From NCBI GenBank assembly GCA_007692425.1, contig RECG01000021.1, positions 1-45,049 on the forward strand: a DNA stretch of 45,049 nt, given 5' to 3'. Position 1 is the stretch's first letter, and each line of letters starts with the position of its first letter. Below, in pieces: positions 1-35,588 of this stretch. Both the position numbers and the translations under genes were made by a program. Under the pieces are notes generated by a model. It searched no databases and was not told where the DNA came from. It worked only from the letters and a program-made list of their open reading frames with translations. The stretch is from Acholeplasmataceae bacterium. Lineage in GTDB: Bacteria; Bacillota_I; Bacilli_A; Acholeplasmatales; Acholeplasmataceae.

Positions 1-432
1 AGCAACGGCGTGATCCACGTGATCGACGGCGTGCTCCTGCCACCGGCTGAAGAACTCGGCACGATCGTCGACATCGCCGTCGCAAGCGATGACTTCACCA
101 CGCTGGTCGCCGCCTTGACGGAAGCCGAACTGGTCGCAGCCCTGCAAGGTGAAGGCCCGTTCACCGTCTTCGCACCGACTGATGACGCGTTCGCAGCGCT
201 CTTGGCTGAACTAGACATCACCGCTTCGGACCTGCTCGCGTTTGAAAACCTTTCTGAAATTCTGCTCTACCATGTCGTGGTTGGCTCATTCACCGCCGCT
301 GACGTGATCGCCCTGACCGCAGACGGTCCGGTCGAAGTCGAAACCCTGAGTGGTGCGATGATCACGATTTCCGTCGTTGACGGCAACGTCTTCATCAACG
401 ACGCCCAGGTCATCCTGCCCGACGTCATGGCC
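1..432 (+). repeat. 432-bp tandem repeat, copy 1 (one FAS1 unit)
   Basis: First complete copy of a 432-bp (144-codon) direct repeat inside the fasciclin gene. By eye it is identical base for base to 433-864, and the two translations are identical. Confidence 0.95.
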
Positions 433-933
433 AGCAACGGCGTGATCCACGTGATCGACGGCGTGCTCCTGCCACCGGCTGAAGAACTCGGCACGATCGT
501 CGACATCGCCGTCGCAAGCGATGACTTCACCACGCTGGTCGCCGCCTTGACGGAAGCCGAACTGGTCGCAGCCCTGCAAGGTGAAGGCCCGTTCACCGTC
601 TTCGCACCGACTGATGACGCGTTCGCAGCGCTCTTGGCTGAACTAGACATCACCGCTTCGGACCTGCTCGCGTTTGAAAACCTTTCTGAAATTCTGCTCT
701 ACCATGTCGTGGTTGGCTCATTCACCGCCGCTGACGTGATCGCCCTGACCGCAGACGGTCCGGTCGAAGTCGAAACCCTGAGTGGTGCGATGATCACGAT
801 TTCCGTCGTTGACGGCAACGTCTTCATCAACGACGCCCAGGTCATCCTGCCCGACGTCATGGCCAGCAACGGCGTGATCCACGTGATCGACGGCGTGCTC
901 CTGCCACCGGCTGAAGAAACACCAGAAGAGTAA
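1..933 (+). CDS. Fasciclin (FAS1) repeat protein, 5' end outside the window
   Basis: The frame is open from the first base, so only the C-terminal 310 codons are present; the GTG at 10 is not a credible start. Each 144-residue unit is a FAS1 domain: the motif FTVFAPTDDAFAAL is FAS1 box H1, and LLYHVVVGSFTAADV matches box H2. FAS1 domains are extracellular adhesion modules in many bacteria, so a secreted or surface role is likely, but the signal peptide and any anchor would lie upstream. Two whole units and the start of a third are visible; the protein ends in a short acidic tail, ETPEE. The visible protein has no Lys, Arg, Cys or Trp and about 23 Asp/Glu per unit. Codons are GC-rich compared with the genes downstream. 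A hairpin terminator follows at 991. Confidence 0.9.
   Translation, partial: SNGVIHVIDGVLLPPAEELGTIVDIAVASDDFTTLVAALTEAELVAALQGEGPFTVFAPTDDAFAALLAELDITASDLLAFENLSEILLYHVVVGSFTAADVIALTADGPVEVETLSGAMITISVVDGNVFINDAQVILPDVMASNGVIHVIDGVLLPPAEELGTIVDIAVASDDFTTLVAALTEAELVAALQGEGPFTVFAPTDDAFAALLAELDITASDLLAFENLSEILLYHVVVGSFTAADVIALTADGPVEVETLSGAMITISVVDGNVFINDAQVILPDVMASNGVIHVIDGVLLPPAEETPEE
433..864 (+). repeat. 432-bp tandem repeat, copy 2
   Basis: Second complete copy, with no difference from copy 1 that I can find. Synonymous positions are also unchanged, so the duplication is recent or kept uniform by recombination. Confidence 0.95.
865..918 (+). repeat. 432-bp tandem repeat, truncated third copy
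   Basis: The first 54 bases of the unit recur here and then diverge into the C-terminal tail (ETPEE, stop). The unit boundary therefore falls inside a FAS1 domain rather than between domains. Confidence 0.9.
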
Positions 934-31802: not shown

Positions 31803-32096
31803 ATGGAAAACCAACAACTGGCCGGACGTTTCAAGGCCTTGGCGGATGAAACCCGCCTCAAAGTGGTGCAAATCCTGACGACTGAAAAAAGATGTGCCTG
31901 TCAGATCCTGGAAGTCTTCAAGATCAGCCAATCGACATTGTCGCATCATATGAAACGCCTGGTCGAAAGTGGATTGGTCATCGCCGAAAAAGAAGGCAAA
32001 TGGGTCTATTACCGTTTGAATGAAGACAATGTCAACGATCTGAAAGTATTCTTCGATACGATCGGGACCCGGACTGATCCGGTCAGGTCATGTTGA
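31803..32096 (+). CDS. arsR: ArsR-family arsenite-responsive repressor
   Basis: A 97-residue winged-helix repressor. The start of the recognition-helix region holds the CxC pair C31/C33 (KRCACQILEVF), the classic As(III)/Sb(III) site, followed by ISQSTLSHHMKRL, the DNA-reading helix. The operon content (acr3, arsC) confirms an arsenic role. TGAGGTGA lies upstream. It is expected to repress its own operon through 31771-31792 and release DNA on binding arsenite. Confidence 0.93.
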   Translation: MENQQLAGRFKALADETRLKVVQILTTEKRCACQILEVFKISQSTLSHHMKRLVESGLVIAEKEGKWVYYRLNEDNVNDLKVFFDTIGTRTDPVRSC

Positions 32097-32156
32097 CCAT
32101 CATGCCAACAATCAAAAGAAGCATCATGAACATCAACAAATATGCGAGGTGAACAT

Positions 32157-33209
32157 ATGAAACCTGATATCGGCTTTTTCGAAAAGTATCTTACCGGTTT
32201 TGTCTTGATCTGCATGATCATCGGGGTCAGCATCGGTGTCTTCCTGCCTGTCATTCCTGAAACCTTGTCTCGTTTTGAAGTCGCTTCGGTCAACATCCCA
32301 ATCGGCATCCTCATCTGGGTGATGATCTACCCGATGATGTTGAAAGTCGATTTCTTTTCCGTCAAACAGGTCGGCCGTGAACCAAAAGGGCTCTATCTGA
32401 CCTGGGTGGTCAACTGGCTCATCAAGCCGTTTACGATGTTCGGTATCGCCTATTTGTTTTTTTATGTCATTTTCAGCGCGATCATTCCACCCGGCCTGCA
32501 ACAGGATTATCTGGCAGGTGCCGTCCTTTTAGGTGCCGCACCATGTACAGCCATGGTCTTTGTCTGGAGCAGCCTGACACGTGGGAACCCCGCTTACACG
32601 CTGCTGCAAGTCGCCACCAACGATCTTATCGTACTGGTTTTGTTTGCACCGATTGTCGGATTGTTACTTGGCATCTCAGGGATCAGCGTCCCATGGTTGA
32701 CCTTGTTCTTATCCGTGTTTCTCTTTGTCGTCATTCCTTTGGTTGCAGCTTCGCTGACCCGGTACTTCCTTGTTTCAAAACGAGGCATTGATTATTATAA
32801 CAAACAGTTCATTCCCAAATTCCAGGCGGTCACCATCATGGGACTGTTGTTGACCTTGGTGTTGATTTTCTCTTTGCAAAGCGATCTGATCATCAATAAC
32901 CCTTTGCATATCTTCTTGATTGCCATCCCTTTGATCATCCAGACGTTTTTGATTTTCTTCATTGCATACCGTGCTGCAAAGATACTCAAACTGCCACATG
33001 ATGTCGCCGCACCGGCCGGTATGATCGGCGCCAGCAACTTCTTTGAACTCGCGGTCGCGGTTGCCATCGCCTTGTTTCCGTTGAATCCCGCTGTCGCCTT
33101 GGCCACCATTGTCGGTGTGCTGGTCGAAGTGCCGGTGATGTTGATGCTTGTCAAAATCGCCAATCGAACCAAACATTGGTTTCCAACCAAGAAAGAGGTG
33201 AAAGCATGA
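32157..33209 (+). CDS. acr3: Acr3-type arsenite efflux permease
   Basis: A 350-residue membrane carrier with ten predicted segments. The conserved cysteine C130 in GAAPCTAMVFVWS identifies Acr3 (BASS superfamily) rather than the unrelated ArsB. It pumps As(III) out using the proton gradient. The ATG at 32157 has GCGAGGTGA upstream; an in-frame ATG at 32142 would place that site inside the gene. Overlaps arsC by 4 bp. Confidence 0.94.
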   Translation: MKPDIGFFEKYLTGFVLICMIIGVSIGVFLPVIPETLSRFEVASVNIPIGILIWVMIYPMMLKVDFFSVKQVGREPKGLYLTWVVNWLIKPFTMFGIAYLFFYVIFSAIIPPGLQQDYLAGAVLLGAAPCTAMVFVWSSLTRGNPAYTLLQVATNDLIVLVLFAPIVGLLLGISGISVPWLTLFLSVFLFVVIPLVAASLTRYFLVSKRGIDYYNKQFIPKFQAVTIMGLLLTLVLIFSLQSDLIINNPLHIFLIAIPLIIQTFLIFFIAYRAAKILKLPHDVAAPAGMIGASNFFELAVAVAIALFPLNPAVALATIVGVLVEVPVMLMLVKIANRTKHWFPTKKEVKA

Positions 33210-33622
33210 AACGTATCAAAGTCGCCTATGTCTGCGTCCATAACAGTTGTCGCAGCCAGATGGCCGAAGCCCTGACCAAATTGTATGTCGCAGATTTTTT
33301 CGACGCTTATAGCGGTGGCACCGAAACCAAACCGCAAATCAACCAGGATGCCGTCCGCATCATCAAAACGTTGCACGGCGTCGACATGAACCAGACACAG
33401 CGTTCCAAACTGGTGGATGAACTGCCTGAAATCGATGTGCTGATCACGATGGGATGCAACGTTGAATGTCCATTCATCCCCTGCCAGTTCAGGGAAGACT
33501 GGGGTCTAGATGATCCGACCGGACATCCGGACGAGGTCTTTATCGATACGCAAGCTGTCATACTTGAAAAAATCCGTTCACTTAAAGACCGGATTTTGTC
33601 AAAAGAGATCGAAATCGTATAA
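33206..33622 (+). CDS. arsC: Arsenate reductase, thioredoxin-coupled
   Basis: Reduces As(V) to As(III) for export. The 138-residue protein has the low-molecular-weight phosphatase loop CVHNSCRS (nucleophile C10, with C15) and downstream cysteines C84, C88 and C93 (MGCNVECPFIPC), which supply the disulfide relay of the thioredoxin-linked ArsC class. GAAAGAGGTG precedes the ATG; start and acr3 stop overlap. Confidence 0.94.
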   Translation: MKRIKVAYVCVHNSCRSQMAEALTKLYVADFFDAYSGGTETKPQINQDAVRIIKTLHGVDMNQTQRSKLVDELPEIDVLITMGCNVECPFIPCQFREDWGLDDPTGHPDEVFIDTQAVILEKIRSLKDRILSKEIEIV

Positions 33623-34327: not shown

Positions 34328-34402
34328 GGAGTTATAGCTCAGCGGGAGAGCATCTGCTTGACGTGCAGGGGGTCGGGGGTTCGAATCCCTCTAACTCCAC
34401 CA
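34328..34402 (+). tRNA. tRNA-Val (anticodon GAC)
   Basis: A 75-nt cloverleaf. The acceptor stem GGAGTTA pairs with TAACTCC, the D arm is GCTC/GAGC, and the anticodon stem TCTGC/GCAGG holds loop TTGACGT, giving anticodon GAC. The T arm has the GGTTCGAATCC core, and the 3' CCA is encoded. It reads GUC and GUU. A single tRNA with its own promoter and terminator. Confidence 0.95.
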
Positions 34403-34412
34403 TCAGACAGAC

Positions 34413-34433
34413 ACGGCTTTCGAGCCGTTTTTA
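34413..34433 (+). terminator. Terminator after tRNA-Val
   Basis: ACGGCT-TTCG-AGCCGT perfect stem capped by a stable UUCG tetraloop, followed by TTTTTA. Confidence 0.88.
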
Positions 34434-34493: not shown

Positions 34494-34502
34494 TGATATA
34501 AT
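34494..34502 (+). promoter_or_regulatory. Extended -10 promoter of the E1-like/ubiquitin-like pair
   Basis: TGATATAAT perfect extended -10, 65 bp before the start codon. Confidence 0.55.
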
Positions 34503-34567: not shown

Positions 34568-35284
34568 ATGAACAAGCCATTTGAAAAGAATTTCGGCATC
34601 ATCACCCAACATGATTTTCTAAAACTTCGGAACATCCGTGTTTTGATTGTCGGTCTGGGTGGGCTGGGTGGACATATTGCCAACAACTTGGTCAGGCTGG
34701 GTGTCATGAGCATCGACATGTGCGACCATGATGCCTTTGAGATCACCAATCTCAACAGACAGCTTTTTTCTTCGCACGCGACCATCGGACAATACAAGGT
34801 TGACGTGGTGAAGGCATCCTTGTTGGCCATCAATCCGGATATCAACGTCAATATTGACGCTGTCCGTGTCCAAGAACTGGATGATCATGTGTTTGACAAC
34901 ATCGATCTAATGATTGATGCCGTTGATGATATCGCCACGAAGCTTTATCTTGAACATGTTGCCTGCAAACACGGCAAGCCATTGCTTCATGGAGCCGTTG
35001 CAGGCTGGTATGGCCAGATAGGTCTTGTCATGCCGGAATCGTATTTGTTACAGGAACTCTATCAAGGTAAACATCAGGGATTGGAACGGATACTTGGAAG
35101 TCCGACATTCACGCCAGCAGTGGTCGCCAGCATGATGACATGTGAGTTCGTCAAATACATCATGGGTCATGAACAAGCGCTGATCAACAAAATCATGATG
35201 ATTGACCTCTTGAACCATGACTATCGTGTTTTGCTCGAGCATCAGCCTGAAAAATCAGTTCGAAAGGAGAAACGTTCATGGTGA
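34568..35284 (+). CDS. ThiF/MoeB/HesA-family E1-like adenylyltransferase
   Basis: A 238-residue protein of the E1 superfamily, which adenylates the C-terminal glycine of a small sulfur carrier. The ATP site is VLIVGLGGLGGHIANNLVRLGV, then DHDAFEITNLNRQLF with the conserved Arg, K near YKVDVVKA, and IDAVDDIATK with the metal-binding Asp. The two CxxC zinc pairs of classical MoeB and ThiF are absent. The partner is almost certainly the overlapping ubiquitin-like gene. No thiazole, molybdopterin or cysteine-pathway gene is nearby, so the pathway is open. Confidence 0.88.
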   Translation: MNKPFEKNFGIITQHDFLKLRNIRVLIVGLGGLGGHIANNLVRLGVMSIDMCDHDAFEITNLNRQLFSSHATIGQYKVDVVKASLLAINPDINVNIDAVRVQELDDHVFDNIDLMIDAVDDIATKLYLEHVACKHGKPLLHGAVAGWYGQIGLVMPESYLLQELYQGKHQGLERILGSPTFTPAVVASMMTCEFVKYIMGHEQALINKIMMIDLLNHDYRVLLEHQPEKSVRKEKRSW

Positions 35285-35526
35285 CAGTTCGTTTTCTCAA
35301 TCTTCTAAGAAGCACATACAAGGTGGAACAAATCGAAGTTGAATCAGGAAGCGTCCGTTCCATCATTGCGCAAATCATCAGCAAGGTGCCAGACATGCGT
35401 GAAGAGGATTTTGAACAAGCGGTGTTATTCGTCAATCAAGTGAAAGTCATGCACGTCAGCCGTTATGATGACATGATTAACGATGGTGATGTCGTCGTAT
35501 TCACCCATTTTATCGGTGGTGGTTAG
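35278..35526 (+). CDS. MoaD/ThiS-like ubiquitin-fold sulfur carrier
   Basis: An 82-residue protein with a beta-grasp pattern and a C-terminus that ends exactly in FIGGG, so a di-glycine is exposed without processing, as in MoaD and ThiS. It overlaps the E1-like gene by 7 bp and has a GAAAGGAGA ribosome binding site. Length and the SRYDDMINDGDVVVFTHFIGGG-like tail favour MoaD over ThiS, but the acceptor is unknown. Confidence 0.88.
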   Translation: MVTVRFLNLLRSTYKVEQIEVESGSVRSIIAQIISKVPDMREEDFEQAVLFVNQVKVMHVSRYDDMINDGDVVVFTHFIGGG

Positions 35527-35557: not shown

Positions 35558-35588
35558 AAAAAGCATCTGGGTTTGCCAGATGCTTTTT
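35558..35588. terminator. Bidirectional terminator between moaD-like and pgsA-like genes
   Basis: AAAAAGCATCTGG (35558-35570) and CCAGATGCTTTTT (35576-35588) form a perfect 13-bp stem with A- and T-runs, usable from both sides. Confidence 0.9.

Follow-up and report, generated by a model that had tools for sequence, protein, structure and literature searches.

An E1-like enzyme and ubiquitin-like sulfur-carrier pair detached from tungsten cofactor operons in Acholeplasmataceae and related bacteria

Pairs of an E1-like adenylyltransferase and a ubiquitin-like (Ubl) sulfur carrier are already known. The described systems closest to the locus reported here are the MoaD/MoeB clusters linked to aldehyde:ferredoxin oxidoreductase (AOR), which were described in 2006 (Iyer et al., PMC1779556). 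In these tungsten-AOR operons, as in our locus, an E1 without zinc cysteines adjoins a MoaD-fold Ubl, and the E1s belong to the same family, ours having roughly 34–50% identity to the AOR-linked members. In contrast, our pair has no AOR, radical SAM, MoaA, or tungstate-transport neighbors, AOR and MoaA are absent genome-wide, and its Ubl belongs to a group (type B, below) that forms a distinct clade, is longer, and ends in FTHFVGGG instead of FPPVAGG. Classical MoeB/MoaD resembles the pair in the predicted folds of both proteins, ThiF/ThiS of thiamine synthesis shares the E1 superfamily, the GG tail, and the adjacency of the genes, and TcdA, the tRNA ct6A synthase, has to our knowledge no Ubl partner. 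The pair nevertheless lies far below the MoeB/MoaD cut-offs, without a zinc site and without MoaE, MoaC, or MoaA in its genome; its E1 has none of the CxxC pairs of Escherichia coli ThiF, and ThiG and ThiC were not detected in the genome; and the E1 scores below the TcdA equivalog level. A further point of comparison comes from organisms that have molybdoproteins but no Moco pathway: a survey (PMC6147048) lists such organisms, proposes unrecognized Moco components, and reports no molybdenum use in Tenericutes/Mollicutes.

We analyzed a 45,049-nucleotide stretch of Acholeplasmataceae DNA (hereafter the window), which is contig 27 of a 29-contig, 1.45 Mb draft genome (G000) that is 97.8% complete. 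The forward strand encodes a 238-residue E1-like adenylyltransferase of the ThiF/MoeB superfamily and AOR-operon clade (34568–35284), followed by an 82-residue MoaD-fold Ubl sulfur carrier with the tail FTHFIGGG (35278–35526); both assignments draw on Pfam, alignments (A1 and A2, respectively), trees, and structural models. A GGAG-type ribosome site precedes each gene, and the 7 bp overlap of the reading frames and the terminal glycines agree with a sequence-only reading of this DNA, which had described a MoaD-like protein overlapping the E1 and ending in GGG. The three glycine codons (35515–35523, forward strand) are the predicted adenylation/thiocarboxylation site, and the GGG is invariant in all 13 aligned Ubls (alignment A2). 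The matches of the E1 to Pfam ThiF (E = 8.5e-49) and of the Ubl to Pfam ThiS (E = 1.7e-5, above the gathering score) are far beyond chance, and every NCBIfam model that matches the pair (MoeB, ThiF, TcdA, UbaA, and others) does so far below its own cut-off: the E1 scores 90.3 bits against moeB (equivalog cut-off 376.55), 113.5 against ThiF (cut-off 275), and 63.2 against TcdA (cut-off 304), and the Ubl scores 28 bits against moaD_arch (cut-off 49.5).

The predicted structure of the E1 (pLDDT 89.5) has MoeB (1jw9) and ThiF (1zud) as top fold matches, and that of the Ubl (pLDDT 86.4) has MoaD (1fm0), with further matches to SAMP1 and Urm1. Residues invariant among the E1s (alignment A1) are the loop GxGGxG, D53, D55, N61, R64, Q65, K77, and D120, which we take to be the MoeB/ThiF adenylation site. 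The window E1 contains no zinc CxxC pair, and no cysteine is conserved anywhere in the E1 family alignment. Since none of the 92 AOR-type E1s compared has two CxxC pairs, their absence, already remarked on in the sequence-only reading, is a trait of the family and not a quirk of the window gene.

The pair is apparently transcribed on its own, because the tRNA-Val(GAC) gene directly upstream (34328–34402, forward strand) has its own intrinsic terminator (34413–34428, forward strand) between it and the pair. A strong bidirectional intrinsic-terminator hairpin (35558–35588, z = −5.8) is common to the pair and to a convergent CDP-alcohol phosphatidyltransferase gene. Ahead of the pair lies a weak extended −10 promoter-like element on the forward strand, TGATATAAT (34494–34502), with no scored −35; no −35 box for the pair passed our two-hexamer promoter scan, which missed the extended −10 as well. 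Of the promoter and terminator first proposed for the pair, the terminator thus holds and the promoter does so in part. The proposed absence of thiamine, molybdopterin, and cysteine genes nearby is also confirmed, with no thi, moa, or cys gene adjoining the pair. Synteny of the DUF2179-tRNA-Val block extends to eight further members of the family that we examined, but only in the window does the pair follow it, so the pair was either gained in the window genome or lost elsewhere. Just upstream of this block we observe an arsenic-resistance-like cluster (31803–33622) encoding an ArsR-like protein, an ACR3-like transporter, and a protein of ArsC-like low-molecular-weight phosphatase fold, the last being the one covered by the family-model scan; elsewhere in the window (10–933), an ORF with two near-identical repeats appears fasciclin-like by eye.

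We read the gene content of G000 through family searches and targeted stretches, and the window E1 is the only ThiF-family protein detected there. Across the 88 genomes of the window family we find no AOR and no significant relative of the Ubl (best E = 0.017). Another family member, G040, carries two partial genes for a similar E1 (L093:2-331 and L094:7926-8255), each at the end of a contig. Both are N-terminal fragments that break off at one and the same residue, which suggests two E1 copies broken by assembly. The plasmid and phage collections hold no near relative of the pair, the plasmid matches being E1s at 30–40% identity.

A search of the class identified about two dozen E1s that are clearly nearer to the window E1 than are background ThiF proteins, and their neighborhoods sort into two kinds. 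Type A loci combine the E1 with a MoaD ending, for example, in PPVAGG or PPMAGG and with a radical SAM protein, AOR, tungstate transport, MoeA, and MogA. Type B loci, including that of the window, contain the E1 and Ubl only, the Ubl tail being FT(H/N/Q)F(V/I)GGG with few exceptions. Named genomes contributed 80 loci when scanned; AOR operons of Clostridia, Geobacter relatives, and Thermodesulfobacteria account for many of these, and further type B loci turned up in Mollicutes and Izimaplasma metagenome-assembled genomes. The E1 adjoins the Ubl at all 16 type B loci, and the type B Ubl occurs in at least 16 genomes from several families, always paired; the co-occurrence survey that had been proposed for this pair shows a recurrent family. 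A search of the neighborhoods for an acceptor gene turned up nothing, besides the E1 and Ubl, that is present at more than 3 of these 16 loci. We also observe a third kind of locus (L074:7704-8643 in G482, and L095:7747-8666), in which an E1 of the same clade accompanies a MoaD ending in PPAAGG and is unlinked to AOR; G482 has this locus as a second copy, its AOR operon sitting elsewhere in the genome. At L082:868-1916 (G235), the two genes of a type B pair are divergently oriented and the Ubl, with the tail FMSPVGGG, is unusual; this pair is possibly decaying or changing function.

In the trees, the window E1 falls in a clade (support 100/99) with all type B E1s and the AOR-linked E1s of the same class. 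The type B E1s are interleaved with those of type A, and as the AU test does not reject a single type B clade (p = 0.17), we make no claim of polyphyly. The type B Ubls form one clade (99/88), apart from the AOR-linked MoaD clade, and evolve under purifying selection, with a dN/dS of 0.09 in the closest pair and values of 0.14 and 0.17 in two pairs that lie further apart; the majority of the remaining comparisons are saturated. The trees and gene content show that the pair either arose from the E1/MoaD of tungsten-AOR cofactor operons or has a common origin with it, and that it is uncoupled from that pathway.

We further searched 14 type B genomes for the cofactor pathways; both genes were seen in 13 of them, and in the remaining one, G312, the E1 sits at the end of a contig. 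MoaA (Mob_synth_C) and AOR are each found in 0/14 type B genomes and in 8/8 type A genomes. MoaC, MoeA, and MogA were not detected with a chimeric query in six type B genomes including G000, and the same query found all three in three type A genomes; it gave no convincing match to ThiG or ThiC in these six type B or three type A genomes, a result for which a positive control is lacking. The Pfam MoaE model matches 0/24 genomes, type A included, and 11 control genomes are positive. The six type B genomes do encode MnmA, SufS, a second cysteine desulfurase, and ThiI (chimeric query). The same pathway absences recur in G203, a type B genome assembled as a single contig, where they are consequently not an assembly artifact. 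The searches of G000 for moaA, moaC, moaE, thiG, and AOR that the sequence-only reading had recommended thus return nothing, and with no standard moa or thi set found elsewhere in this genome, the interpretation as an isolated E1 and sulfur carrier stands. The tungsten option that it had raised is right as ancestry, sister operons carrying AOR, and wrong as present function, since no tested genome with a type B Ubl has either AOR or MoaA. As a separate observation, eight genomes (G359, G376, G482, G276, G271, G487, G173, and G200), whose AOR loci fall among L072–L092, have AOR, MoaA, MoaD-like, and MoeB-like genes and no MoaE by the Pfam model, which raises the possibility of a MoaE-independent molybdopterin synthase in the lineage.

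All 14 type B genomes contain two copies of the molybdopterin-binding MoCoBD_1 domain, in two intact-looking enzymes of the xanthine dehydrogenase (XDH) family, compared with 72 of the 395 genomes of the class with any copy (Fisher p about 1e-11, a value inflated by shared ancestry). In G000 the XDH cluster (contig 25, 66157–86932; L220–L221), which has a counterpart in G203 (L222–L223), encodes two intact-looking catalytic subunits with the conserved catalytic GE motif, together with XdhC, a MocA-like transferase, and purine-degradation enzymes. It also holds a conserved 207-residue membrane protein (L221:1181-1804) that has no relative in Pfam, NCBIfam, or the PDB and is a candidate precursor importer. 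Because XDH-family molybdenum enzymes are present and the tested Moco synthesis genes are absent, the type B genomes count as orphan molybdoprotein organisms as the survey cited above uses the term (PMC6147048); they differ in keeping an E1-Ubl sulfur-carrier pair, which the portion of that survey drawn on here does not describe. The pair is not near the XDH cluster, and it is not required for XDH everywhere, since XDH occurs without it in about 50 class genomes that carry neither E1 type and in G076 and G077, of the same genus as the window genome.

On balance, we favor the reading of the pair as a self-contained sulfur-carrier module, a judgment that concerns the mechanism and leaves the acceptor aside. 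Judging from the fold and the conserved active-site residues, the E1 would bind ATP and adenylate the C-terminal glycine of the Ubl, probably with no E1 thioester intermediate, a step made unlikely by the lack of any conserved cysteine. A cysteine desulfurase encoded in the genome would then supply sulfur to give a Ubl-thiocarboxylate, which would pass it to an acceptor encoded elsewhere in the genome. As the tested cofactor genes are missing while molybdenum enzymes are still encoded, the pair probably serves an unrecognized sulfur-transfer step. The leading acceptor, put forward tentatively, is the maturation or salvage of a pterin cofactor for the two XDH-family enzymes; against it, without MoaA, MoaC, and MoaE none of the known substrates of a MoaD-type carrier would be made. 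A more specific and rather unlikely version is a moa-less Moco route, in which these wall-less bacteria would import a pyranopterin or obtain it in some other way, the E1-Ubl pair would install or restore the dithiolene sulfurs without MoaA, MoaC, or MoaE, and MocA and XdhC would then finish the XDH cofactor.

Other sulfur acceptors (tRNA, an amino acid, or a metabolite) are jointly about as likely as the pterin cofactor. The pair may accordingly be a sulfur donor for tRNA thiolation, for cysteine or methionine synthesis, or for a secondary metabolite, a possibility that we take seriously while holding it well short of probable. Standalone E1-Ubl pairs play such a role elsewhere, as with TtuB, CysO, HcyS, and QbsE, and the FTHFVGGG tail presumably resembles that of some ThiS proteins. 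Thermococcus Ubls, moreover, serve both the tungsten cofactor and tRNA thiolation (PMC11323500). However, ThiI, MnmA, and the two cysteine desulfurases would normally be enough for tRNA thiolation, the chimeric query detected neither ThiG nor ThiC in the six type B genomes, and the 16 type B loci show no linked acceptor gene. Conjugation of the Ubl onto lysines without an E2, as in archaeal SAMP or TtuB, would suit the SAMP1-like and Urm1-like predicted fold and the ability of Ubl sulfur carriers to conjugate (PMC11323500), but appears improbable given an E1 without a conserved catalytic cysteine and 16 loci with no E2 or JAB in common. Matches to PADLOC models of a defense E1-E2 system reflect the shared E1 domain only, and we rejected that assignment.

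It is also quite improbable that the pair is a disappearing remnant of a tungsten-AOR operon that has been lost. The E1 clade shared with AOR-linked genes, the mutual exclusivity of AOR genomes and type B genomes, and the one type B locus (L082) that may be decaying would all fit such a history; against it, the type B Ubls of at least 16 genomes in several families form their own well-supported clade, the two genes always occur together, and the Ubl is under purifying selection in the closest comparison. Finally, the usual molybdopterin pathway could lie in the missing 2% of the G000 draft, with its 29 contigs, an idea to which we give hardly any credence and which is largely refuted by the same absences in 14 genomes, or in six where the full set was searched, among them the single-contig G203.

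In the literature searched, we find no account of a detached, recurrent pair whose Ubls form a clade of their own, in bacteria that lack moa genes and carry XDH. Among the genomes tested, the orphan sulfur-carrier pair occurs only alongside orphan molybdenum hydroxylases, and it offers a compact, recurrent, and cultivable case for the question of unrecognized Moco components that the survey posed (PMC6147048). One member of the type B set, Xianfuyuplasma coldseepsis zrk13 (genome 1,958,905 bp), is in culture and shows raised expression of xanthine dehydrogenase-related genes with thiosulfate (PMC8397711). Because zrk13 is cultured and expresses its XDH cluster, this organism makes it possible to test what the pair does and where the cofactor comes from.
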